Source of the DNA: Komagataeibacter swingsii
GTDB taxonomy: Bacteria > Pseudomonadota > Alphaproteobacteria > Acetobacterales > Acetobacteraceae
DNA length: 50,666 nucleotides
Direction: 5' to 3'
NCBI RefSeq assembly: GCF_003207895.1
Contig: NZ_NKUB01000019.1
Coordinates: 1 to 50,666 of the forward strand
Each line of letters starts with the position of its first letter. The stretch's first letter is position 1. The notes beneath the pieces are model-generated. The model saw nothing but the letters and a program-made list of their open reading frames with translations, was not told the origin of the DNA and searched no databases. This document shows positions 34,067 to 46,532 of the stretch, in pieces. The position numbers and the translations under genes are program-made.

Positions 34067-35269
34067 TTACTTCAGGCCATCCACAAAGGCCGCGATGCGG
34101 CGGCAGCCTTCGCGCAGGGTCGCCGTATCGGTGGCGTAGGAAATGCGGAAGAACGGACTCATGCCATAGGCCGCACCCTGCACGGACGCCACCTGCTGTT
34201 CTTCCAGCAGTCCCATGACGAAATCGGCGTCGGTCGCGATCAGGCGGCCCCCGGCCGAGGTCCTGCCCATGCATCTGCTGATATCGGGATAGACATAGAA
34301 CGCCCCCTGCGGCGTATGGCACTGCACGCCGGGAATGGCGTTGAGCAGGCTGACCACAAGGTCACGCCGCGCCTGGTATTCCGCCGCGCGGTCCTTCAGG
34401 AAATCCTGCGGGCCATCCAGCGCGGCCACGGCTGCGGCCTGCGCCAGCGTGTTGATGCCGCTGGTGGACTGGCCCTGCATGTTGTTCATGGCCGCGATCA
34501 GCGCGCGCGGGCCGCCACAGTAGCCGACACGCCAGCCGGTCATGGCATAGGCCTTGGACACGCCATTGACGGTCAGGACACGGTCCTTAAGCCGGGGTTC
34601 GACCTCGGCGATCGTGCAGAAGGTGAAGCCGTCATAGATCAGGTGTTCATAGATGTCGTCGGTCATGATCCAGACCTGCGGGTGCTTCAGCAGGACGGCG
34701 GCGATGGCTTCCATGTCGGCGCGCGGGCAGCATGCGCCGGTGGGGTTGCCGGGAAAGTTCAGGACCAGCCACTTGGTCCTTGGCGTAATCGCGGCCTCGA
34801 GTGCCGCGGCCGACAGGCGGAAGCCCCCTTCGGCCGGGCAGGGCACGGACACGATGGACGCCCCGGCCAGGCGGGCGATATCGGCATAGCTGATCCAGCT
34901 TGGCGTGGGCAGAACCACCTCGTCACCGGGGTTGATGGTGGCCATCATGGCGTCATAGATGATCTGCTTGGCGCCGTTGGCCACCAGGATTTCATCCAGC
35001 GCGTAATCAAGGTGGTTTTCGCGCTGGAACTTGCCCTGCACCGCTTTTTTCAGCGCGGGCTTGCCATCCTGCGGCGGGTATTTGGTGTCACCCGCGCGGG
35101 CTGCGGCGATCGCGGCGTCCACGACATGCGCGGGGGTGGGGAAATCGGGTTCGCCCGATGACAGGCTGATGATCTTCACCCCTTCCGCCTTCAGCACCGA
35201 TGCCTTGTCGGTCATCGCGGCGGAAGCCGAAATCCCAATTCCATTCAGTCGATCCGCAAACCCAGGCAT
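34067..35269 (-). CDS. Aspartate/aromatic-type aminotransferase (class I PLP enzyme)
   Basis: 400-residue PLP enzyme of the aspartate aminotransferase Ib-like group, moving an amino group between an amino acid and 2-oxoglutarate or oxaloacetate. PLP lysine K239 is in the motif NGVSKAYAMTGWRVGY. Other conserved parts are ISLSSGEPDFPTPAHV near the start, the NFPGNPTGACC loop, IMTDDIYEHLIYDGF, the dimer-interface segment QGQSTSGINTLAQAAAVAAL and the arginine segment FFRISYATD near the C-terminus, which binds the substrate carboxylate. It starts at ATG 35269 with GTGGAGAA upstream. It is transcribed toward the repeat copy and is likely a single gene. Confidence 0.93.
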   Translation of the reverse strand: MPGFADRLNGIGISASAAMTDKASVLKAEGVKIISLSSGEPDFPTPAHVVDAAIAAARAGDTKYPPQDGKPALKKAVQGKFQRENHLDYALDEILVANGAKQIIYDAMMATINPGDEVVLPTPSWISYADIARLAGASIVSVPCPAEGGFRLSAAALEAAITPRTKWLVLNFPGNPTGACCPRADMEAIAAVLLKHPQVWIMTDDIYEHLIYDGFTFCTIAEVEPRLKDRVLTVNGVSKAYAMTGWRVGYCGGPRALIAAMNNMQGQSTSGINTLAQAAAVAALDGPQDFLKDRAAEYQARRDLVVSLLNAIPGVQCHTPQGAFYVYPDISRCMGRTSAGGRLIATDADFVMGLLEEQQVASVQGAAYGMSPFFRISYATDTATLREGCRRIAAFVDGLK

Positions 35270-35403: not shown

Positions 35404-36666
35404 TTATCCCGCCCGCCCATCCATGCGGATCGGGTTGCGCACCATGGCCAGTGACAGCCCGGCGGCAATGACCAGGGCCGCGGCGCACATGTACCACGCC
35501 ATGTCGAAACTGCCGGTCCACGCCACGATATACCCGGTCAGGATGGGCGACAGCAGCCCCAGCGCGTTGCTGCATGTCAGCGTAACCCCCGTGACCGCCC
35601 CCATTTTCCGGCCATCGTCCACCATGTCGGTCAGCAGCGCGGTATTGGCGCCATTGGCCGCCATGAGGCAGGCCAGCGCCCCCGACAGCACCAGCACGAT
35701 GGGCATCATGGTATGGAACTGCGGCAGCAGCCCGATCGTGGCGGCGCCGATCAGGCAGGTGGCCACAATGAAGCGCCGCGCAGGCGGGTGGATGCCGTTG
35801 CGGAAGGTGAAATGTTCCAGCACGCGGCCGATAATGACCGCGCCAATGGCCGCGACCAGGTAGCACAGGGCCGTGCTGTTGCCGGTGCCGGTGGTGTTGA
35901 TGTGCAGTTCATGGATCAGGTACAGCGGCATCCACGACATGACCAGGAAGTTCAGGTAATTCTGCGTGCACTGCACCACCAGTATGCCCAGAAAGGACGA
36001 TGAGCGGAACAGGTTCCTGATTTCGCGCACCGTAATGGGCCTGCGCGGGGCGGCGTCGGCCTTCAGCACCGGGTTGCGGTACACCAGCCACCACACCAGC
36101 GCCCATATGATGCCCACCGCGCCCAGCGCCACGAATTCGCACCGCCACCCGAAAAAGGTGATCAGGTACGCCCCCGCGATCGTACCGCCCGCAAGCCCGA
36201 GCTGCATGCCCGTCAGCAGCACGGTCATGACCGACCCGCGTTCGCGCGGCTGCGCCCAGTTGCGCACCACGGTGGCCCCCACGCCGAAGGTCGGCGCCTC
36301 GCCCACGCCCAGCAGCACGCGCGTCAGCAGGAACTGCGTGATGTTCTGCGCCATGCCGCCCAGCAGCATGGCGAACGACCACACGCCAACGGCAAGGCTG
36401 CCGATGGCGCGCGCGCCCACCATGTCGAGCACGATGGTCGAGGGCAGGTTGAGCAGGAAATACGACCACAGGAAACTGGATGAAACCCAGCCCATCTGCA
36501 CCGGCGTCAGGGAAAACTCCCTGCCCATTGACGGCAGGGCGATGGACAGCGCGGCGCGGTCGCCATAGCTTATGGCGTACATCAGGAAGACAAGGAAGAA
36601 GAACACGTAGCGGGCCGGAATGGCGCGCCCGTTTCGTGCGTTGGTGGTCGTATCACCTGTTGTCAC
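35404..36666 (-). CDS. MFS transporter, ACS family
   Basis: 420-residue transporter with about 12 helices, an organic-anion importer by family. Typical segments are FLMYAISYGDRAALSIALPS at the first helix, WVSSSFLWSYFLLNLPSTIV, RVLLGVGEAPTFGVGATVVR before helix 5, NWAQPRERGSVMTVLLTGMQ, and NGANTALLTDMVDDGRKMGA late in the protein. The starting ATG is at 36666. It lies 66 bp after the EamA transporter gene on the same strand and about 1.2 kb downstream of pxpA. A natural hypothesis is that it imports the organic acid or cyclic amide handled by the pxp enzymes, but the sequence does not show this. Confidence 0.85.
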   Translation of the reverse strand: MTTGDTTTNARNGRAIPARYVFFFLVFLMYAISYGDRAALSIALPSMGREFSLTPVQMGWVSSSFLWSYFLLNLPSTIVLDMVGARAIGSLAVGVWSFAMLLGGMAQNITQFLLTRVLLGVGEAPTFGVGATVVRNWAQPRERGSVMTVLLTGMQLGLAGGTIAGAYLITFFGWRCEFVALGAVGIIWALVWWLVYRNPVLKADAAPRRPITVREIRNLFRSSSFLGILVVQCTQNYLNFLVMSWMPLYLIHELHINTTGTGNSTALCYLVAAIGAVIIGRVLEHFTFRNGIHPPARRFIVATCLIGAATIGLLPQFHTMMPIVLVLSGALACLMAANGANTALLTDMVDDGRKMGAVTGVTLTCSNALGLLSPILTGYIVAWTGSFDMAWYMCAAALVIAAGLSLAMVRNPIRMDGRAG

Positions 36667-36732: not shown

Positions 36733-37656
36733 TCATGGCGGGGTGCCGGTGGCCGCGTCCATCGTGCCTTCCGCCACGGCCTTGCGCCTTGCGGGGCGGT
36801 CATGGCGCAGCATCCACACACCAGACCCGATGATCAGCAGCCCGCCCATCACCATGGCCACGCCGGGTATCTCGCCAAAGCCGAACCACCCGATCAGCGC
36901 CGCCCACAGCAGCCCGGAATAGGCAAAGGGGCCAATGGCGGAGACCTGCGCCGAGGCAAAGGCCTCGGTCTGCAGGACCTGCGCGATCCCGGCGAAGGCG
37001 CCGACGGCGACAAGGCACGCGGCCTCGGTCACGCCGGGCGTGGTCCAGATGAAGGGCAGGGGAAGCGCTGTCATGAGCGTCATGAGGATGGCCTGCCACA
37101 GCGCGATGGTGGTGCTGGCTTCCGTGGCCGAAAGCTGGCGGATCTGCATGGTGGTCAGCGCGCCCACCGCGCCCTGCGCCAGGGCCACGAAATAGGCCCA
37201 GCCCGGCACCGCGCTGCCCGCGCCATGCAGCAGTCCCTTGCCAAGGGCCACCACGACCACGCCCGAAAACCCGAGGCACACGGCAATCCAGCGCTGCGCC
37301 GACGGCCGTTCATGCAGCAGCGGGATGGACAGCAGCACAAGGAACAGCGGCTGCGTGTAGGACAGCACCTGCTGTTCGGCCAGCGGCAGGCGGGTGACGG
37401 TCATCACCACCATGATCATGCTGATCAGGCCTACGACCGACCGCAGGACATGCCCGCCAAAATGGCTGGTTTTCAGGACAATGCCCGTGCGTGATGCGAT
37501 CAGCAGCACGAAGGGCAGGGAAAACAGGTTGCGGAAGAAAATGATTTCCAGCGCGGGCAGTGTCGATCCGGTCAGTTTCTGCAGGGCATTGAGGGCCGCG
37601 GTAAAGAATGTTGCCGATGCCAGAAGAAGGGCGCCACGTTTCAGGTCATGCTTCAT
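36733..37656 (-). CDS. EamA/DMT-superfamily transporter
   Basis: 307-residue membrane protein with ten hydrophobic helices arranged as two EamA repeats. The first has LPALEIIFFRNLFSLPFVLL, RLPLAEQQVLSYTQPLFLVL and LLHERPSAQRWIAVCLGFSG. The second has the matching GAFAGIAQVLQTEAFASAQV, PFAYSGLLWAALIGWFGFGE and IPGVAMVMGGLLIIGSGVWM. The family exports or imports small metabolites such as amino acids. It starts at ATG 37656. It is co-oriented with the MFS gene 66 bp downstream and with pxpA 171 bp upstream, so it may belong to the pxp transcript. Confidence 0.87.
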   Translation of the reverse strand: MKHDLKRGALLLASATFFTAALNALQKLTGSTLPALEIIFFRNLFSLPFVLLIASRTGIVLKTSHFGGHVLRSVVGLISMIMVVMTVTRLPLAEQQVLSYTQPLFLVLLSIPLLHERPSAQRWIAVCLGFSGVVVVALGKGLLHGAGSAVPGWAYFVALAQGAVGALTTMQIRQLSATEASTTIALWQAILMTLMTALPLPFIWTTPGVTEAACLVAVGAFAGIAQVLQTEAFASAQVSAIGPFAYSGLLWAALIGWFGFGEIPGVAMVMGGLLIIGSGVWMLRHDRPARRKAVAEGTMDAATGTPP

Positions 37657-37827: not shown

Positions 37828-38595
37828 TCAGTCCCCAAGCTGGCAGGCGGGCGTCAGCACGCCGCCGCTGGCCTCGATTTCCGCGCGGATGGCGCGTGCC
37901 AGTTCCAGTGACCCCGGCGTGTCGCTGTGCACCAGTATGGACCGCGCCTTGACCGGCAGGCGCGCGCCGTCGATGGTGGTGACCGACCCGTCATGCAGGA
38001 ACTGCCTCACGCGCGCGCGCACCCCCGCCAGGTCATGGATGACCGCCCCCGGCTGCCCGCGCGGCACCAGCGTGCCCGCCGTGGTATAGGCCCGGTCCGC
38101 CAGGAACAGTGTCTGCGCCCGCAGCCCGGCCTTTTCCGCCGCGCGCTCGGTCGCCTGGCCGGGCATGCAGAATACGCTCAGGTTGCGGTCCATCGCCGCG
38201 ATCGCGCGCGTCAGGCGCAGGGCGAGGGCCTCGTCGGCGTTGGCCATGTTGCCGAATGCCGCGTGATAGCTGACATGGGTGACACGGTGGCCATGGCGGG
38301 CGGCGATGCCCTGCAACGCGCCGATCTGGTAACACATCATGGATTCCATGTCCGCGTCCGACACGGCCATGCTGCGCCGCCCGAAGCCCATGAGGTCCGG
38401 CAGGCCGGGATGGGCGCCAATGCCCACGCCCCTTTCCTTCGCCAGCTTTACCGTGCGGTCCATGATGGCGTAGTCACCGGCATGGAACCCGCAGGCGATA
38501 TTGGCCGAGGACACGGTTTCCATCAGCCCGTCATCATCGGCGATGCGCCAGCGGCCGAAGCCTTCGCCCATGTCGGAATTGAGGTCGATCTTCAT
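37828..38595 (-). CDS. pxpA: LamB/YcsF family, 5-oxoprolinase subunit A
   Basis: 255-residue protein of the LamB/YcsF family. With PxpB and PxpC it makes the bacterial ATP-dependent 5-oxoprolinase, opening 5-oxoproline (a cyclised glutamate by-product) to glutamate. The family start MKIDLNSDMGEGFGRW is followed by SSANIACGFHAGDYAIMDRT (with metal-binding-type Asn/His/Asp), IGAHPGLPDLMGFGRR and, later, EAFADRAYTTAG-like FLADRAYTTAGTLVPRG; the C-terminal part has SILVHSDTPGS. The start is ATG at 38595 with GGAGACAAGG upstream. It overlaps pxpC by 4 bp and is the third gene of the tight pxpB-pxpC-pxpA unit. Confidence 0.92.
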   Translation of the reverse strand: MKIDLNSDMGEGFGRWRIADDDGLMETVSSANIACGFHAGDYAIMDRTVKLAKERGVGIGAHPGLPDLMGFGRRSMAVSDADMESMMCYQIGALQGIAARHGHRVTHVSYHAAFGNMANADEALALRLTRAIAAMDRNLSVFCMPGQATERAAEKAGLRAQTLFLADRAYTTAGTLVPRGQPGAVIHDLAGVRARVRQFLHDGSVTTIDGARLPVKARSILVHSDTPGSLELARAIRAEIEASGGVLTPACQLGD

Positions 38596-39599
38596 GCCTT
38601 GTCTCCAGACTTGATGCCGGCGCGGCAGCGCGCGGATGCACGGTAACGGGCGACCATCATGCGCAGGTCGTCCAGATAGGCATCGACCGGCCGCATGGCG
38701 GCGACCCCTTCGGCAAAGCTGCATTCATGAAAGCGGATGCGCGTGCCGATGCGCGCCTGCGCCAGCCGCCACAGGTCGGCCTCGATCACGGTGGCGATGC
38801 GCGGGTAGCCGCCAACGGTGTTGGCGTCGGCCAGCTGCACGATCGGCTCGCCCGCCGGTGGCACCTGCACGATGCCGGCGATGACACCGTAGGACCGCAG
38901 CTCAACCCGGTGGCGCAGTTCCAGCGGCGCGCCCGACAGGCGGTAGCCCACGCGGTTGCTCTGCGGCGTGATGCGCCACGCGGCGTCCCACAGCCGCCGC
39001 CGGGATTCAGGGGTGAACAGTTCATAATCGGTCGCCGGCATCGCGCGCAGATGGATGACCTTCGCATCATCTCCACAGGCTACGGCATCGAGCACCCGCG
39101 CGGGGGGCAGGGCACCGTAACCCGCAACGTCCAGCGTGGTCCCCGTGGTCTTCAGCGTGTCACCCGCTTCCAGCGGGCGGCCGTCCAGCCCGCCAAAGCC
39201 GCCACGGAGCTGCGTGCTGCGCGATCCCAGCACCACGGGCACCTCGATCCCGCCCGCGATGCAGATATAGCCGCGCGCGCCGGTCCTGGGCGCGCCCACG
39301 CGCAGCACCTGTCCCGCCGCCACGGTTTCGACCATCCATGGCAGGATGGCGCGGCCGTCGATTTCGATGTCGGCGTCAATGCCTGTCACCACAAGGCTGG
39401 CCGGAGCGTCAAGGCGCAGCACGAAGGGGTAGGTCTGCAGTTCGATACAGGCATCGTCAATCTTGTTGCCCAGCAGGATATTGCCCACCCGCAGCGCAAG
39501 GGCGTCCATCACGCCCGACGTGCCCACGCCAAGGTTGCGGTAACCGGGGCGGCCCAGGTCCTGCACCGTGTTCAGGGCGGATGTTTCAAGGATGGTCAT
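38592..39599 (-). CDS. pxpC: Carboxyltransferase-domain subunit (CT_A_B), 5-oxoprolinase subunit C
   Basis: 335-residue protein of the KipA family, homologous to subdomains A/B of the carboxyltransferase of urea carboxylase. Family pattern: ILETSALNTVQDLGRPGYRN, GVGTSGVMDALALRVGNILL, GYICIAGGIEVPVVLGSRST, LRGGFGGLDGRPLEAGDTLK, PQSNRVGYRLSGAPLELRHR and GVIAGIVQVPPAGEPIVQLA. The start is ATG at 39599, overlapping the pxpB stop (TGATG); GTG at 39602 is possible. Its stop overlaps the pxpA start, so all three are translationally coupled. Presence of a biotin carboxylase and carriers across the divergent promoter raises a biotin-dependent alternative. Confidence 0.92.
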   Translation of the reverse strand: MTILETSALNTVQDLGRPGYRNLGVGTSGVMDALALRVGNILLGNKIDDACIELQTYPFVLRLDAPASLVVTGIDADIEIDGRAILPWMVETVAAGQVLRVGAPRTGARGYICIAGGIEVPVVLGSRSTQLRGGFGGLDGRPLEAGDTLKTTGTTLDVAGYGALPPARVLDAVACGDDAKVIHLRAMPATDYELFTPESRRRLWDAAWRITPQSNRVGYRLSGAPLELRHRVELRSYGVIAGIVQVPPAGEPIVQLADANTVGGYPRIATVIEADLWRLAQARIGTRIRFHECSFAEGVAAMRPVDAYLDDLRMMVARYRASARCRAGIKSGDKA

Positions 39600-40279
39600 C
39601 ACGGCGCGATGCTTTCGGGATAAAAGCGGATGCGGTCGCCAATGGCGAACAGGGCGGGCGGCTGCTTGCGGGGATCAAACAGGGTAATGTCGGTGTAGCC
39701 GATGGAATTCCACCCGTTCGGCCCGGTCAGCGCGGAAATGCCCGCCTGCATGCCGCCAATGGTCACGGTCCCGGCCGGCATGTTCAGCGACGGCACGGTC
39801 TTGCGCGGGGTGGCGATGCGCGGGTCCAGCCCGTGCAGGTAGCCAAAGCCCGGCGCGCTGCCTATGGCGCAGACAGTGTATTCACTGCCATGGTGGATGG
39901 CGATGACCTCCTCGGGCGGCAGGCCCGCATGGGCGGCGACAGCGGCCAGGTCGCCGCCCAGTTCGCCGCCATAGCGCACGCCGATTTCAAACAGGCGACC
40001 TTCGATATGCCGTTCGGGCAGGGTGTCCCATGCATGGCGCAGCCAGTCTGCCACGTCATGCGGGCTTTCGGGCGGGACGGCAAAGATCAGCATGAGGTTG
40101 GTCACGCCGGGAATGAGTTCGCACACATCGGGCCGCGCCTGCGCCGCATCCATCAGCGACCAGATCCGGCGCTGGTGGGCCATGGTGAAGTCACCCGGCG
40201 CCTCGAACAGCATGGCGCGGGTGCCGATCATGCTGATGGTGGGTGCTGCACGGGTATCGCGCGCCACGTCGTTCTTCAT
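39599..40279 (-). CDS. pxpB: Carboxyltransferase-domain subunit (CT_C_D), 5-oxoprolinase subunit B
   Basis: 226-residue protein of the KipI family, homologous to subdomains C/D of urea carboxylase. Conserved segments are the middle FEIGVRYGGELGGDLAAVAA, the signature GSAPGFGYLHGLDPRIATPR, VPAGSVGIGG-like NMPAGTVTIGGMQAGISALT, PNGWNSIGYTDITLFDP and PALFAIGDRIRFYPE at the C-terminus. The start is uncertain: ATG at 40279 or in-frame TTG at 40291, both with weak ribosome sites. First gene of the pxpB-pxpC-pxpA unit. It is divergent from the SDR-accB-accC operon. Confidence 0.92.
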   Translation of the reverse strand: MKNDVARDTRAAPTISMIGTRAMLFEAPGDFTMAHQRRIWSLMDAAQARPDVCELIPGVTNLMLIFAVPPESPHDVADWLRHAWDTLPERHIEGRLFEIGVRYGGELGGDLAAVAAHAGLPPEEVIAIHHGSEYTVCAIGSAPGFGYLHGLDPRIATPRKTVPSLNMPAGTVTIGGMQAGISALTGPNGWNSIGYTDITLFDPRKQPPALFAIGDRIRFYPESIAP

Positions 40280-40636
40280 ATCCGTGTTCAAAATACACAG
40301 TCCCTGGAACAGTGCTGGTCATATCCCGGAAAATGGCAGGATCAGGCATCAGGCCCGGACCACGGCAATACAGGTTTCCCGCCGTCCGGCGCCGACCTGC
40401 AAACTATGGCCGTTTGCGTAACGATGACCAGTGCAATTCTGGCTGTATGGCCATCGGATAATCTTATGGATCAGGGCGATAGCCGGGCCATCATATATTG
40501 TTATGGCGTGAGAACGAAGTGCTCTTGGCGCATGCTGGCCGCGCCCGTTAGCATGAAGTGAATAGCTGAACATCCGGCACCCGTTGTGGGGCCGGGCGGG
40601 AGGCGTCATCTCTGTTCAGGATCGGGTTTTCTTACC
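40280..40636. other. Divergent promoter region between pxpB and the SDR gene
   Basis: 357 bp with no gene. It is more AT-rich than the genes on either side, especially 40425-40510, and should carry both promoters. No clear palindromic operator was recognised. Confidence 0.5.
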
Positions 40637-41392
40637 ATGAGCAACCAGCCGTACCGCACCGCCCTCGTCACTGGCGCATCCTCTGGCATTGGCGCGGAAA
40701 TCGTCCGCCGCCTGTCGAAGGAAGGGATCGAGGTCCATGCCCTGGCGCGTGACGCGGCGCGGCTGGAAGCGCTGTCGCAGGAAACCGGCTGCGTCGTGCA
40801 TGCCGTCAGCGTATCCGACCAGGCGGGGATCGAGGCGCTGGTCAACGGGCTGGAGATCGACATCCTGGTCAACAATGCCGGGCAGTCGCGCACGGGCAAC
40901 ATCACCAACACCACGCCGGAAGATATCGACGCCCTGGTGGACGTGAACCTGCGCGCGGTGCTGCAACTGACGCGGCTGGTGGTCGCGGGCATGATCGCGC
41001 GTGACCGCGGGCATATCGTCAACATCACCTCCATCGCCGGGCATTATGCCTTTGCCGGCGGCAACACGGTCTACCATGCCACCAAGGCGGGCGTGCATTC
41101 GCTGTCGCAGCAGTTGCGCTGCGACCTGTTCGGCCGCCACATCCGCGTGACCGAGGTCTCGCCCGCGCGGTGCGAGACCGAGGTGTTCGGCCGCCTGATC
41201 GGCAACATGGAGGAAGCGAAGAAGCGCTTCTTTGACGAATACGAATCCCTGCTGCCCGAGGATATCGCAAACTCCGTCGCCTTTGCCGTCATGGCGCCGC
41301 AGCGCATGAATGTCAGCTTCATGGAAGTGCTGCCGACCATGCAGGTGGTGGGCGGCCTGAACTTCGCCAAGAAGACGTCCGGCGCGGCGTAA
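40637..41392 (+). CDS. Short-chain dehydrogenase/reductase (SDR), YdfG-like
   Basis: 251-residue NAD(P)-dependent oxidoreductase. The cofactor motif TGASSGIG is near residue 13, the stabilising NNAG near residue 83, the catalytic Ser in NITSIAGHYAF, and Tyr/Lys in YHATKAG (YxxxK). The C-terminal part, including VSPARCETEVFGRLIGN, resembles the YdfG/3-hydroxy-acid dehydrogenase branch. The start is ATG at 40637; the frame is open to 40586 but upstream codons lack a ribosome site. Followed 5 bp later by accB, so it is the first gene of the biotin operon. It could act on a hydroxy acid related to the carboxylase substrate; this is inferred only from linkage. Confidence 0.88.
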   Translation: MSNQPYRTALVTGASSGIGAEIVRRLSKEGIEVHALARDAARLEALSQETGCVVHAVSVSDQAGIEALVNGLEIDILVNNAGQSRTGNITNTTPEDIDALVDVNLRAVLQLTRLVVAGMIARDRGHIVNITSIAGHYAFAGGNTVYHATKAGVHSLSQQLRCDLFGRHIRVTEVSPARCETEVFGRLIGNMEEAKKRFFDEYESLLPEDIANSVAFAVMAPQRMNVSFMEVLPTMQVVGGLNFAKKTSGAA

Positions 41393-41397
41393 GGCCA

Positions 41398-41835
41398 GTG
41401 GATCTCACGCATGTCAGGCGGCTGATCGACCTTGTGGCCCATGCCCCGGTCACGGAGCTTGAGGTTGAGGAAGGCGGCTGCCGCATCCGCATCACCCGTG
41501 GTGGTGGTGGTGCGCCGCCCGCCGCGACACCCGCGCCCGCAACTATCGTGGAGGCGGTCCGCGCGCCGACTGTGGCCGCGCCGGAACCGCCGCCCGTGGC
41601 GCAGGCCGTCATCACGGCCCCATCCTATGGCGTGTTCCATCTCTCGCCCTCGCCCGGCGCGGCCCCCTACGTCACGGTGGGGCAGGAAGTGCAGGTGGGG
41701 CAGGAAGTGGGGCTGGTGGAGGCCATGAAGGTGTTCAACGCCGTGCGCGCCACGCAGGCTGGCACGATCGCCGCCGTGCTGGTGGAAGACGGCACGGAAG
41801 TGGAGGCAGGGACCCCCCTGTTCCGTCTGGCATGA
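41398..41835 (+). CDS. accB: Biotin carboxyl carrier protein, paralog for a non-housekeeping carboxylase
   Basis: 145-residue carrier. The biotinyl domain at the C-terminus has the motif VEAMKVFN with the biotin-accepting Lys111. The N-terminus (LTHVRRLIDLVAHAPVTELE) is typical of AccB, and the Ala/Pro-rich linker (about 38-68) is flexible. The start is GTG at 41398, 5 bp after the SDR stop; TAAGG precedes it. It overlaps accC (ATGA). Acetic acid bacteria also need an essential accBC pair for fatty-acid synthesis. The linkage of this one to pxp genes suggests a dedicated set, but this cannot be proven without the other copies. Confidence 0.88.
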   Translation: MDLTHVRRLIDLVAHAPVTELEVEEGGCRIRITRGGGGAPPAATPAPATIVEAVRAPTVAAPEPPPVAQAVITAPSYGVFHLSPSPGAAPYVTVGQEVQVGQEVGLVEAMKVFNAVRATQAGTIAAVLVEDGTEVEAGTPLFRLA

Positions 41836-43199
41836 GTGAGATCCCACGTTTCAGCCGGGTGCTGATCGCCAATCGTGGCGAGATCGCGCTGCGCATCCAG
41901 CGCGCCTGCCGCCAGCTTGGCCTGGAAACGGTGGCCGTGTATTCCGAAGCCGACGCCGACAGCCGCCATGTGCATGAGGCCGACATCGCCCTGTGCATCG
42001 GCCCCGCCGCCGCCGCGCGCAGCTATCTGGATGCGGACGGGCTGCTTCTGGCCGCCCGCCTGACCGGGGCGCAGGCCATCCATCCCGGTTATGGCTTCCT
42101 GTCGGAAAACGCTGATTTCGCCGATGCGGTGGCGGCGGCGGGCCTGACCTTCATCGGGCCGACGGGCGCGTCGATCCGCATGATGGGCGACAAGATTACC
42201 GCCAAGCGCGCCATGCGCGACGCGGGCGTGCCCTGCGTGCCCGGATCGGACGGGCCGCTGCCTGCTGACATGGACGCGGTGAAGGCCATTGCGTTGCAGG
42301 TGGGCTTTCCCGTTATCGTCAAGGCATCGGGCGGTGGCGGCGGGCGCGGCATGCGCGTGGTCGAGCGCGAGGCCGACCTGGCGCAGGCCGTAACACTGAC
42401 CGCCAAGGAAGCACAGCAGGCGTTCGGCAACCCGACGCTCTACCTTGAACGCTTCATGCAGAAACCGCGCCATATCGAGATACAGGTGCTGTGTGACACC
42501 CACGGCACGGCGCTATGGCTGGGCGCGCGCGACTGTTCATTGCAGCGCCGCCACCAGAAGGTGCTGGAGGAAGCCTCCGCCCCCGGCATCGCCCCCGAAA
42601 CGATTGCCGAAATCGGCGAACGCTGCGCCGAAGCCTGCCGCCGTATCGGCTACCGTGGCGCGGGCACGTTCGAATTCCTGTATGAAGACGGGGTATTCGC
42701 CTTCATCGAAATGAATACCCGCGTGCAGGTCGAACACCCGATTACGGAGGAGACGACAGGCATCGACATCGTGGCCGGGCAACTGCGTATCGCGCAGGGC
42801 GAACCGCTGGGTATCGCGCAGCCGGACATCCCGCTGCTGGGCCATTCCATCGAATGCCGCCTGAATGCCGAGGACCCGTTCACCTTCATGCCCTCGCCGG
42901 GCACCATCACGCGCTGGGACCTGCCCGGCGGGCCGGGCATCCGGGTCGATACGCATGTGGTGGCGGGTTATACGGTACAGCCCTATTATGACTCGCTGAT
43001 CGGCAAGGTCATAAGCCATGGCGCAACCCGCGCCGAAGCCATTGCGCGGATGCAGGTGGCGCTGGCGGAAATGAAGGTGGAAGGGGTGTCAACCAACATC
43101 GCCCTGCACCGCGACCTGCTGGCGGACCCGGATTTCCGGCGCGGCGGGGTGGACATCCACTATCTTGAACGCTGGCTTGCACGGAGGACGGCGCCATGA
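41832..43199 (+). CDS. accC: Biotin carboxylase subunit
   Basis: 455-residue ATP-grasp biotin carboxylase, which carboxylates biotin on the carrier with bicarbonate and ATP. Typical segments are RVLIANRGEIALRIQRACRQ, the AIHPGYGFLSENADFADAV loop, GDKITAKRAMRDAGVP, the ATP-lid glycine loop KASGGGGGRGMRVV, the HIEIQVLCDTHG region, and the metal-binding FIEMNTRVQVEHPITEE. Full length and uninterrupted. The start ATG overlaps the accB stop, and its own stop overlaps the start of the second carrier (ATGA). All three are coupled, as in a stoichiometric complex. Confidence 0.94.
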   Translation: MSEIPRFSRVLIANRGEIALRIQRACRQLGLETVAVYSEADADSRHVHEADIALCIGPAAAARSYLDADGLLLAARLTGAQAIHPGYGFLSENADFADAVAAAGLTFIGPTGASIRMMGDKITAKRAMRDAGVPCVPGSDGPLPADMDAVKAIALQVGFPVIVKASGGGGGRGMRVVEREADLAQAVTLTAKEAQQAFGNPTLYLERFMQKPRHIEIQVLCDTHGTALWLGARDCSLQRRHQKVLEEASAPGIAPETIAEIGERCAEACRRIGYRGAGTFEFLYEDGVFAFIEMNTRVQVEHPITEETTGIDIVAGQLRIAQGEPLGIAQPDIPLLGHSIECRLNAEDPFTFMPSPGTITRWDLPGGPGIRVDTHVVAGYTVQPYYDSLIGKVISHGATRAEAIARMQVALAEMKVEGVSTNIALHRDLLADPDFRRGGVDIHYLERWLARRTAP

Positions 43200-43654
43200 A
43201 CAACCGCCCCGAACAGTTGGTGCCCCCGTTCGACCGGCTGCCGGAACCCGAACAGATCGCACAGATGGCGACATGGCTGGCGCAGGCGGGGCTGGACAGC
43301 CTGGAACTGACGAACGCGGCGGCGGGCCTGAAGCTGCGCATCCGCGTGGGGCAGGCGGCACCGGTCCCGCCCGCAGCGCAGGCCGCCCCCCCGCAGGCGG
43401 ATGCCGGGGCAGGGCGTGTTGCGGTTACGACGCCGTATTTCGGCCATCTGTGCCTGACCCATCCGTTGCGCGATGCGCCTTTTGCCCCGGCGGGGACAAG
43501 GGTGGCGCAGGGGGATGTGGTGGCCCTGCTGACACTGGACAGCCTGCAGGTGCCGGTGACCGCGCCGGTGGCGGGCATGGTGGTGGATGTTGTGGGCCAG
43601 CCCGGCGCGCTGGTGGGATATGGCGCGCCCGTCCTGCATATCCAGCCCGACTGA
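43196..43654 (+). CDS. Biotinyl-domain carrier paralog lacking the biotin lysine
   Basis: 152-residue carrier-like protein. The N-terminal helical part (EPEQIAQMATWLAQAGLDSL) and Pro/Ala linker resemble AccB, and the C-terminal domain aligns without gaps to the biotinyl domain of the carrier encoded at 41398-41835. The biotin motif VEAMKVFN is replaced by LTLDSLQV, so the lysine is a serine (Ser116). Nevertheless the glycine turns (TAPVAGMVVDV; GALVGYGAPVLHI) and hydrophobic core are preserved and the frame is clean. It cannot be biotinylated at the usual site. It may be a structural dummy subunit, an assembly factor or a regulator of the complex. The start overlaps the accC stop. Lipoyl modification seems unlikely for the same reason. 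Confidence 0.8.
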   Translation: MNNRPEQLVPPFDRLPEPEQIAQMATWLAQAGLDSLELTNAAAGLKLRIRVGQAAPVPPAAQAAPPQADAGAGRVAVTTPYFGHLCLTHPLRDAPFAPAGTRVAQGDVVALLTLDSLQVPVTAPVAGMVVDVVGQPGALVGYGAPVLHIQPD

Positions 43655-44087: not shown

Positions 44088-45578
44088 ATGATGAATATGA
44101 CCCCCTTGGCGCCAGACGCCACAACCCGCATTCCGACCGGCCCCACGGGGATCGGGACGGCAGCACCCGGCCCGCGCACGGAGCGCGACCTGCTGGGCGA
44201 AGTCACCATTCCCCCCGGCGCCCTGTGGGGCGTGCATACCAAACGCGCGCTTGACAACTTTCCCATCAGCGGCACGACAATCGGCACGTTCGGGGAACTG
44301 GTGCAGGGGCTGGTGACGGTCAAGCTGGCGGCGGCCCGGGCCAATCTTGCGCTGGGTTACCTGGACCGCACGCGCGCCGACGCCATTGCGGGCGCATGCC
44401 AGCTCATACTGCAGGATTCCGCCTACCACGCGCAGTTTGTCGTGGATGCCATGCAGGGCGGGGCGGGCACATCGACGAACATGAACGCCAATGAGGTCAT
44501 CGCCAACGTGGCCCTCGGGCTATTGGGGGAAAAGCCGGGCACGTACGCCGTGCTGCACCCCAATGACCATGTCAACATGGCGCAGTCCACCAATGATGTT
44601 TACCCGACGGCGCTCCGGCTGGGCCTGCTGCTGGCGGTTGACCCGCTGGTGCGCGCCCTTGAGGGGCTGCATGCGGCGCTGGATGAAAAGGCGGAAGCCT
44701 TTGGCGCGATCCTGAAGGTCGGCCGCACGCAGCTACGCGATGCCGTGCCCATGACGCTGGGGCAGGAATTCGGCGCGTTCCGCACGGCGATCGCCACGGA
44801 AATCAGCAGTATAAAGACCCATGCCACGGCGTTCGGGCAGGTCAACCTGGGCGGCACGGCCATTGGTACGGGGCTGAATACCGACCCGCGTTACGCATCG
44901 ACCGTCATGGCGGAGCTGCGCCACCTGACCGGGCGGCCCATGGCCGGCGCGCCGGACCTGATCGAGGCGACATCGGATGTGGGGGCCTTCGTCCTGTTTT
45001 CCGGCGTGCTGAAGCGCCTGGCGCTGAAGCTGTCGAAAATGTCCAGCGACCTGCGCCTGCTGTCCAGCGGGCCACGGACGGGACTGGGCGAAATCGTGCT
45101 GCCGGCGGTGCAGGCGGGGTCATCCATCATGCCGGGCAAGGTCAACCCCGTCATCCCCGAGGCCGTCAATCAGGTGGCCTATCTGGTCGCGGGCCATGAC
45201 ATGACCATTACAATGTGCGCCGATAGCGGGCAATTGCAGCTCAATGCGTTCGAACCGATGATCGGCTACTGCCTGTTTACATCCATCAGGACATTGCGCG
45301 CCGCCATCGAAACCCTGGCCACGCGCTGCATCAGCGGTATTTCCGCTGACACGGCGCGGTGCCAGTACCTGTCCGACATCAATATCGGCATTATCACGGC
45401 GCTGGTGCCGGTGCTGGGTTACGATACGTGTTCGGCCATTGCCAAACGCGCATTGGCGGAAAACCGCAGGGTGACGGAGCTGATCGTGGCGGAAGGGCTG
45501 CTTTCGCCCGAACGGCTTGCGGACCTGCTGCGCCCCGATGCGCTGACCAGCCCCAACGTGGGGCGGCAGGCGGGCTGA
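44088..45578 (+). CDS. aspA: Aspartate ammonia-lyase
   Basis: 496-residue member of the fumarase/aspartase superfamily. The N-terminal ERDLLGEVTIPPGALWGVHT is of the aspartase type. Active-site segments are GGAGTSTNMNANEVIANVAL, HPNDHVNMAQSTNDVYPTAL, TQLRDAVPMTLGQEFGAFRT, LGGTAIGTGLNTDPRYAST and the mobile catalytic loop AGSSIMPGKVNPVIPEAVNQ near residue 345. It deaminates L-aspartate to fumarate and ammonia in the cytoplasm. The first 30 residues are a Pro/Thr-rich extension, so a later start is possible; I kept ATG 44088 (AGGCCGGA upstream), with ATG 44091 and 44097 as alternatives. Its stop lies 3 bp from the convergent LysR stop. Confidence 0.9.
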   Translation: MMNMTPLAPDATTRIPTGPTGIGTAAPGPRTERDLLGEVTIPPGALWGVHTKRALDNFPISGTTIGTFGELVQGLVTVKLAAARANLALGYLDRTRADAIAGACQLILQDSAYHAQFVVDAMQGGAGTSTNMNANEVIANVALGLLGEKPGTYAVLHPNDHVNMAQSTNDVYPTALRLGLLLAVDPLVRALEGLHAALDEKAEAFGAILKVGRTQLRDAVPMTLGQEFGAFRTAIATEISSIKTHATAFGQVNLGGTAIGTGLNTDPRYASTVMAELRHLTGRPMAGAPDLIEATSDVGAFVLFSGVLKRLALKLSKMSSDLRLLSSGPRTGLGEIVLPAVQAGSSIMPGKVNPVIPEAVNQVAYLVAGHDMTITMCADSGQLQLNAFEPMIGYCLFTSIRTLRAAIETLATRCISGISADTARCQYLSDINIGIITALVPVLGYDTCSAIAKRALAENRRVTELIVAEGLLSPERLADLLRPDALTSPNVGRQAG

Positions 45579-45581
45579 GCT

Positions 45582-46532
45582 TCAGCCGAAAGGCTGGGTG
45601 CCCGGCCAGTTGTGCGAGGCCGCCATGGCCTTGGCCAGCTCGATGAGCAGTTCGCGCACCGCGACGGAGGCTTCCGTTTCAGGAATGATTTCGGGGATGC
45701 ACAGCGAAACATCCTCCTGAATGACGGGGTTGCGCAGCGGATAGATGCGCGAACGGCCCGGCACGACAATACGGCTGGCGACGGACCATGGCAGGATGGT
45801 GCTGCCGATGCCTTCCTCTATCGCGCCCTGCAAGGTAATCAGCGCCTCGATCTCGGCCACGATGCGCGGTTCAAGCTGCTTGCGCACGAAGGCCATGTCC
45901 ACGCTCTTGCGGACAAAGTTGTGCTTGGGCGGCAGCAGCAGGGGCGTATCGGCTATGTCCGCCAGTTGCACCGCCCCGGTTTCATCTTGCGGGAATTCCA
46001 GCCCGTGCGGGGCGAGCAGGAAGAATTCCTCCTTCATCAGCGGGGTGAAGATAACGCCCTTGATCGGTCCCGCGCCATGGATGACCGCCATGTCCAGCCG
46101 CCCGGTCATGATCAGTTCGCTATAGATGTCATCAAAGCTTTCGGTCAGGTGCAGCGTGATGTCGGGCAGGCAGGCGCGCACGCGCTGCAACAGCTTGACC
46201 GAAAGCGTGGACCCCGCGCTGTAGGGCGACAGCCCGACCGACACCTTGCCCACCAGCGGCCCGGCCCCCTGGGTTATTTCAACCATGGCGCGGTCGAACT
46301 GCTTGGTCAGGGTCTGCGCGTGGCGGTACAGTTCCGACCCGGCCGTGGTGGGTGTCACGCCGCTTTTGCTTCTGATGACAAGTTTCTGCTTGAAGGCGTT
46401 TTCAAGTGTGGCCAGTTGCTGGCTCAACGCGGGCTGGGCGATATTAAGCAGGTCAGCCGCACGGGAAATGCTGCCCAGATCAATGATTTTAATAAAAGCC
46501 TGCAGTCGCCGTATGTCCAACTGGAACTCCAT
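45582..46532 (-). CDS. LysR-family regulator, Nac/Cbl-like
   Basis: 316-residue regulator. The N-terminal helix-turn-helix shows LDIRRLQAFIKIIDLGSISR, then AADLLNIAQPALSQQLATLE. The effector domain begins near GKVSVGLSPYSAGSTLSVKL and resembles the Nac/nitrogen-assimilation branch (ESFDDIYSELIMTGRLDMAV). It is convergent with aspA and divergent from the large TonB-dependent receptor gene, with 369 bp between starts. Its nearest possible targets are therefore the receptor and itself. The start codon is ATG at 46532; the ribosome site is poor. Confidence 0.88.
   Translation of the reverse strand: MEFQLDIRRLQAFIKIIDLGSISRAADLLNIAQPALSQQLATLENAFKQKLVIRSKSGVTPTTAGSELYRHAQTLTKQFDRAMVEITQGAGPLVGKVSVGLSPYSAGSTLSVKLLQRVRACLPDITLHLTESFDDIYSELIMTGRLDMAVIHGAGPIKGVIFTPLMKEEFFLLAPHGLEFPQDETGAVQLADIADTPLLLPPKHNFVRKSVDMAFVRKQLEPRIVAEIEALITLQGAIEEGIGSTILPWSVASRIVVPGRSRIYPLRNPVIQEDVSLCIPEIIPETEASVAVRELLIELAKAMAASHNWPGTQPFG

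Follow-up and report, generated by a model that had tools for sequence, protein, structure and literature searches.

How is ATP coupled to the opening of a lactam ring by PxpB and PxpC (PxpBC), two proteins that have a carboxyltransferase fold and in which Pfam recognizes no ATP-binding domain? The question is raised by a locus of Komagataeibacter swingsii that lies within a 50,666-nucleotide stretch, contig NZ_NKUB01000019.1, the whole of which is called the window here. In this locus pxpA, pxpC and pxpB belong to an arm that diverges from a second arm encoding a short-chain dehydrogenase (SDR), a biotin carboxyl carrier, a biotin carboxylase (BC) and a carrier paralog (Table 1). An earlier note on this DNA had described the divergent arrangement, and Pfam and NCBIfam matches confirm every gene and its strand. 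The window encodes BC, a carrier with a lysine-bearing motif and a carboxyltransferase component, the gene content of a biotin-dependent carboxylase; it also encodes PxpA, PxpB and PxpC together, as expected of a PxpABC 5-oxoprolinase.

Judged from sequence comparisons, both arms probably encode one multi-subunit, biotin-dependent enzyme of the urea carboxylase type, split into separate proteins, that opens a cyclic amide. With ATP and bicarbonate, BC would carboxylate the biotin borne by the carrier with the EAMK motif. From the carrier the carboxyl group would go to PxpBC, and from PxpBC to a cyclic amide, either 5-oxoproline or an amino-acid lactam related to it; the ring, so activated, would be hydrolysed by PxpA to give an amino acid, and the aminotransferase and SDR would take the product onward. 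The paralog, called the pseudo-carrier below, would keep BC, carrier and PxpBC assembled, in the manner of BADC in the acetyl-CoA carboxylase of plants. The earlier note had likewise proposed a carboxylase built from individual subunits, in which PxpBC is the carboxyltransferase and PxpA opens the product. This proposal is now well supported: the linkage is conserved, genes of the two arms are intermixed in some gene orders, and PDB entry 9yx5 points the same way. It offers a concrete, testable answer to the question: ATP would be coupled to lactam opening by PxpBC through carboxybiotin. If it is true, genes annotated as spare acetyl-CoA carboxylase subunits or as 'biotin/lipoyl-containing protein' belong to amino-acid lactam catabolism. 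No description of a PxpBC-BC-carrier-pseudo-carrier system was found, by title or abstract opening, among the matches listed in a literature search that left most subscription journals outside. The new elements are the conserved pseudo-carrier and the breadth of the linkage between PxpABC and biotin machinery.

Linkage of the two arms

Within each arm the frames overlap or nearly touch, so that each reads as an operon. From its far end inwards, the left arm (minus strand) carries the genes for an aminotransferase, an MFS transporter, an EamA transporter, PxpA, PxpC and PxpB, with overlaps of 4 bases between pxpB and pxpC and of 7 bases between pxpC and pxpA. In the right arm (plus strand) the SDR and carrier genes are 5 bases apart, carrier and BC overlap by 4 bases, as do BC and the paralog, and an aspartase-family gene follows. 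The aspartate-aminotransferase-like gene, which lies beyond the MFS gene and was absent from the earlier note, prolongs the left arm.

The comparison of gene neighbourhoods proposed in that note shows the linkage of the arms to be conserved. CT_C_D is present in 36 of the 120 genomes of a family sample, at 44 places; 40 of these, the window included, were examined, and the four others include a partial match and a place on a contig of 4.4 kb. A cluster of the window type occupies 15 of the 40. Several relatives run the genes of both arms interleaved in one direction, for example carrier-BC-PxpB-PxpC-pseudo-carrier-PxpA-SDR (L049, L054, L061). Because the genes are interleaved in relatives and the linkage is conserved, gene order indicates that the two arms form one system. 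A scan of named genomes with a PxpB alignment yielded 80 loci in Komagataeibacter, Gluconacetobacter, Acetobacter, Gluconobacter, rhizobia, Bradyrhizobium, Chelatococcus, Pantoea, Rahnella, Enterobacter and Erwinia, among others; Burkholderia was added from plasmid records. The linkage persists, with varying gene order, in three classes of proteobacteria (alpha, beta and gamma) and has a different form in Lactobacillaceae.

In all, 212 loci were classed; the 80 were chosen for similarity to the window PxpB, and the classed loci are therefore not independent samples. Eighty-nine contain BC, a carrier with the biotin-site lysine (K carrier) and the pseudo-carrier. Seven contain the pseudo-carrier and PxpABC without BC or K carrier, for a total of 96 pseudo-carrier loci, among them L096, L097 and L100, in which the alignment gives T at the biotin site. 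The pseudo-carrier is found in none of the 84 unlinked PxpBC loci, none of the 7 fused urea carboxylase loci and none of the 17 other BC-linked loci (L063, L065, L066, L074, L077-L081, L221, L248, L250, L252-L254, L256, L257). Of the remaining eight, six are window-type loci with cut or rearranged ends (L060, L094, L103, L119, L142, L160) and two are stretches in which neither PxpB nor PxpC occurs (L258, L260); L094, L103, L119 and L160, where the cut or rearrangement lies at a contig or locus end, were kept out of the unlinked count, and L142 and L259 are one and the same place. An independent sample was drawn by phylum. Here CT_C_D occurs in 103 of 299 genomes, and the 87 places analysed are in frames below about 400 amino acids, which omits fused urea carboxylases and about a dozen matches in frames of 537-821 amino acids. 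Five of the 87 have BC, K carrier and pseudo-carrier, one has the pseudo-carrier only, six are other BC-linked forms without it, and one more has a fused BC-carrier.

A housekeeping role for the window's BC and carrier had to be considered, since their being the only acetyl-CoA carboxylase pair of the genome was named in the earlier note as an outcome that would overturn its proposal. This is ruled out by a separate, housekeeping-like pair on another contig (accC with its own carrier, G000:C58:157147-158699), whose accC scores 726.8 bits versus 645.5 for the window copy. The whole 3.73-Mb genome has one CT_C_D place; no other PxpB or fused urea carboxylase was detected in it.

Further support comes from 9yx5 and from operons with D-glutamate cyclase and Nramp-family genes. 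The entry, known from its title and some chain names, is a long chain acyl-CoA carboxylase complex of Mycobacterium smegmatis in which AccA3 occurs with MSMEG_0435-MSMEG_0436, two PxpC/PxpB-like chains. It is the sole physical evidence: as proposed for the window, a PxpC/PxpB-like pair is in one complex with a BC-carrier subunit, but in another organism and another complex, one in which the two chains associate with an acyl-CoA carboxylase whose BC and carrier are fused. The literature search found no paper on 9yx5. On a conjugative plasmid of Lactiplantibacillus plantarum (L325:5268-11542), the genes pxpB-pxpC-carrier-accC-D-glutamate cyclase-pxpA-Nramp-family gene lie between IS30 elements; they look like a 5-oxoproline operon that is mobile and brings its own biotin machinery. 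The same operon without D-glutamate cyclase is present in a Limosilactobacillus fermentum record. These Lactobacillaceae operons (L324, L325) resemble the window in joining PxpABC to a dedicated carrier and BC, and differ from it in having a single carrier, with EAMK; no second carrier is annotated in the operon. A second lineage, three genomes of one genus (L180, L292, L293), has the order K carrier-BC-PxpB-PxpC-PxpA-frame of about 400 amino acids-pseudo-carrier. The frame is of the Nramp family in both cases tested (L292, L293), and in L292 a D-glutamate cyclase (PF07286) adjoins the K carrier. D-Glutamate cyclase, on which our reading of these operons draws, is presumably linked to 5-oxoproline. 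In the available portions of PMC13274462, Corynebacterium glutamicum requires PxpTABC to grow on 5-oxoproline, and PxpT, related to Bacillus subtilis YcsG, is termed an APC-superfamily transporter; we infer that the Nramp-family genes of these operons are its equivalents. For Lactiplantibacillus pentosus, PMC12427679 reports an additional copy each of BCCP and BC as well as pxpB paired with pxpC, which the text available handles separately.

A carrier paralog without the biotin-site lysine

The earlier note had seen in this locus the four domains of urea carboxylase as separate proteins. BC, carrier and carboxyltransferase are indeed present, but the paralog is not a carrier: at the biotin site it reads LLTLDSLQVP, versus GLVEAMKVFN in the carrier, with LDSL in place of EAMK. 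The protein complement is thus unlike that of urea carboxylase. Across 201 aligned carriers (a count outside which lie 11 carriers in frames over 600 amino acids), the biotin-lysine column holds K in 106 and S, T, P, L, E, V, R, N, D, A, G, Y or H in 95. All 106 K sequences are best matched by a carrier profile and 94 of the 95 others by a pseudo-carrier profile (L180 goes to the carrier profile), a split that is not fully blind, as the K group was set by motif and each profile was built from members of its own group. A decaying duplicate is ruled out by a reading frame that is intact and constrained across many genera.

Trees were built after the removal of 41 near-duplicate loci. The carrier tree places 55 of 56 pseudo-carriers in a single clade (support 0.96); with more housekeeping carriers added, 55 of 55 stay together at only 0.603, and the three of the second lineage fall outside. 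Among 169 PxpC sequences, 61 of the 62 of window type form a clade (0.995), which a node with support 0.905 unites with the group holding E. coli PxpC; the exception, L180, pairs with L179 (0.996), an unlinked PxpABC.

In its predicted fold the pseudo-carrier keeps the AccB N-terminal helix, hairpin and barrel, so that it has, like BADC, a BCCP fold without the AMK lysine. Plant BADC proteins are described, in the parts of PMC11926652 available, as non-biotinylated BCCP homologs without the AMKL motif that are important for assembly, and are termed unique to plant acetyl-CoA carboxylase, the enzyme to which they belong; the likeness drawn here is one of fold and motif. By this analogy the pseudo-carrier is most likely a scaffold joining BC, carrier and PxpBC. 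It looks new, and it suggests that a non-biotinylated carrier subunit, called plant-unique, has a conserved bacterial counterpart bound to one enzyme type.

Six enterobacterial loci (L145, L152, L153, L155, L156, L162) bear on this role. They hold PxpB, PxpC, PxpA, an aminotransferase, LysR, the pseudo-carrier and SDR, along with parts of an amino-acid-type ABC transporter, and L219, from the phylum draw, resembles them. BC-type matches in the six genomes are mostly housekeeping-like AccC (two in G125) and fused urea carboxylases. The exceptions are G121, whose second pxp cluster, of the other kind, includes a BC (L257), and G120, with a single BC-carrier frame of 654 residues (L258); for G123 the BC-type matches were two fused ones only, perhaps owing to an assembly gap. 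The pseudo-carrier is thus retained with PxpBC where a dedicated BC and K carrier are missing, and the simplest reading is that it would serve there as an adaptor linking PxpBC to housekeeping AccB-AccC. The same retention bears on a regulatory role, in which the pseudo-carrier would be a decoy that competes with the true carrier and lowers activity. Its predicted fold would be compatible with competition, and earlier in vivo work, as cited in the available text of PMC11926652, suggested that plant BADC is inhibitory. However, the pseudo-carrier is in every complete window-type cluster seen and stays where the locus has no BC and K carrier, a pattern more in keeping with an adaptor than with something that inhibits a dedicated carrier; a decoy is, on balance, unlikely.

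Carboxyl transfer, substrate and competing readings

Several observations weigh against a split biotin enzyme. PxpABC is described as an ATP-dependent 5-oxoprolinase in which PxpBC is assumed to phosphorylate the substrate (PMC13274462, available portions). Of the 87 unfused PxpB loci drawn by phylum, 74 lack any BC or carrier nearer than about 8 kb, and seven window-type loci (the six enterobacterial ones and L219) are without BC and K carrier; PxpBC may operate biotin-free in the enterobacterial loci, the opposite of the adaptor reading. K1605 of yeast urea carboxylase is the probable general base (PMC5770610, available text), and chained alignments place R163 of the window PxpB at this position; R stands there too in each of five solved relatives of PxpB with a listed alignment. 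At this position, the sole one examined, no residue separates linked from unlinked PxpB, R being present in both. Finally, the carrier profiles are not independent of the groups they separate, and the pseudo-carrier fold carries no information on binding partners.

Plain urea carboxylase is ruled out by the arginine at K1605 and by score: versus the TIGR02712 cut-off of 1303.85, BC reaches 488.2, PxpC 163.2 and the carrier 29.4. Urea carboxylase (3va7, 5i8i) is one fused BC-carboxyltransferase-carrier chain, whereas the window has separate proteins and adds the pseudo-carrier and PxpA. Split homologs of its carboxyltransferase were recorded in 2011 without function, in the text available (PMC3199775). 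Compared with the PxpABC 5-oxoprolinases (E. coli YbgJ-YbgK-PxpA, C. glutamicum PxpTABC), the window adds a dedicated BC, carrier, pseudo-carrier, SDR and aminotransferase. Its PxpA passes the PxpA subfamily model (334.8, cut-off 226), PxpB passes TIGR00370 (178.8, cut-off 145.55) and PxpC passes TIGR00724 (297.2, cut-off 230.2); however, PxpC stays under the cut-off of the PxpC_5OPro equivalog (280.7 versus 500). BC passes TIGR00514 (645.9, cut-off 626.5), and the carrier is slightly below the cut-off of TIGR00531 (111.9 versus 115.2).

As to the substrate, for which the matches listed in the literature search gave nothing usable, the earlier note had named 5-oxoproline or another amide or cyclic compound. 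A cyclic amide is favoured; 5-oxoproline itself is uncertain, because one or more additional unfused PxpB-type loci accompany the window-type system in 14 of the 16 genomes checked and because the cluster has an aminotransferase and usually an SDR. These features would also suit an enzyme that carboxylates a non-lactam, such as a ketone or amine that the SDR or aminotransferase would form, with a different role for PxpA. SDR genes (89 of 102 window-type loci, cut loci included) and aspartate-aminotransferase-like genes recur, an RraA-family aldolase is in 33 of 39 other alphaproteobacterial loci, further PxpB-type loci coexist and PxpC is far under its equivalog cut-off. Yet PxpA is present in 96 of the 102, and window-type PxpBC is sister to the E. 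coli-type group, which argues for a related cyclic amide and makes a non-lactam rather improbable. That PxpABC is an ordinary lactamase phosphorylating its substrate, the mechanism assumed in print, with the second accBC merely co-regulated and giving malonyl-CoA or another carboxylation, would agree with the many PxpB loci without linked BC and with the missing general-base lysine, but is very doubtful given a linkage kept across proteobacterial classes and Lactobacillaceae despite changed gene order, the homology of PxpBC to carboxyltransferase with a relative bound to the AccA3 complex in 9yx5 (as its title and chain names have it), and six annotated plasmid regions of the cluster in which accA and accD are not annotated, no search for them having been made elsewhere.

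Extending the split-carboxylase reading, PxpBC might generally be a carboxyltransferase. Widespread PxpABC would then be a hidden biotin enzyme with its own BC and carrier (window, Lactobacillaceae, others) or with borrowed housekeeping ones, and the pseudo-carrier a bacterial BADC-like adaptor docking PxpBC onto them. We offer this only tentatively.

Window genes and variant loci

Table 1. Features of the K. swingsii locus, with positions in the window
Feature	Position	Strand	Match or remark
Aspartate-aminotransferase-like protein	34067..35269	-	closest solved match, aspartate aminotransferase B (6f35)
MFS transporter	35404..36666	-	top NCBIfam model TIGR00893, 178.2 bits (under cut-off 395)
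EamA-family transporter	36733..37656	-	
PxpA (LamB/YcsF), proposed ring-opening hydrolase	37828..38598	-	LamB_YcsF, 305.7 bits
PxpC, carboxyltransferase subdomains A and B	38592..39602	-	CT_A_B, 281.9 bits
PxpB, carboxyltransferase subdomains C and D	39599..40291	-	CT_C_D, 212.9 bits
Divergent intergenic region separating the arms	40292..40636		345 bases
Short-chain dehydrogenase (SDR)	40637..41392	+	top NCBIfam model YdfG equivalog, 160.9 bits (under cut-off 411)
Biotin carboxyl carrier protein	41398..41835	+	EAMKVF biotin site; Biotin_lipoyl, 62.1 bits (cut-off 22.1)
Biotin carboxylase (BC), AccC-like	41832..43199	+	all three BC Pfam domains; second copy in the genome
Pseudo-carrier (carrier paralog)	43196..43654	+	AccB-like fold without biotin-site lysine; Biotin_lipoyl, 29.1 bits (cut-off 22.1)
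Aspartate ammonia-lyase family protein	44088..45578	+	probable pathway neighbour
LysR-family regulator	45582..46532	-	relatives recur beside the cluster in other genomes

The window PxpB is 96% identical to that of K. europaeus. The aminotransferase of the window kind is present in all 35 acetic-acid-bacterial loci, and the MFS and EamA genes occupy the same position in acetic acid bacteria. LysR occurs in 85 of the 102 window-type loci, and the aspartate ammonia-lyase family gene in 28 of the 35 acetic-acid-bacterial loci and none of the 60 other window-type loci.

Variant arrangements also occur. Bradyrhizobium has two PxpBC pairs per single BC, carrier and pseudo-carrier (L121, L127, L130-L135, L139-L141, L143, L146, L151, L161, L163). 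A second kind of BC-linked PxpBC has a short carrier with a VMK site and a very divergent PxpB, and lacks the pseudo-carrier (L077, L078, L080, L081, L250, L252, L253, L256, L257). Genes are split, by true breaks or assembly errors, in Acetobacter pasteurianus (PxpC), A. okinawensis (PxpB) and a Bradyrhizobium (BC) (L112, L116, L141). In the rearranged locus of Gluconobacter frateurii (L103, L260), PxpB-PxpC-EamA-MFS lies some kilobases from SDR-carrier-BC-pseudo-carrier-PxpA. On a Burkholderia plasmid (L165:2732-18396), the cluster is flanked by genes for aspartate transaminase, an RraA-family protein, PEP carboxylase, D-glycerate dehydrogenase and an amino-acid ABC transporter, neighbours that hint at a C3/C4 amino-acid product.

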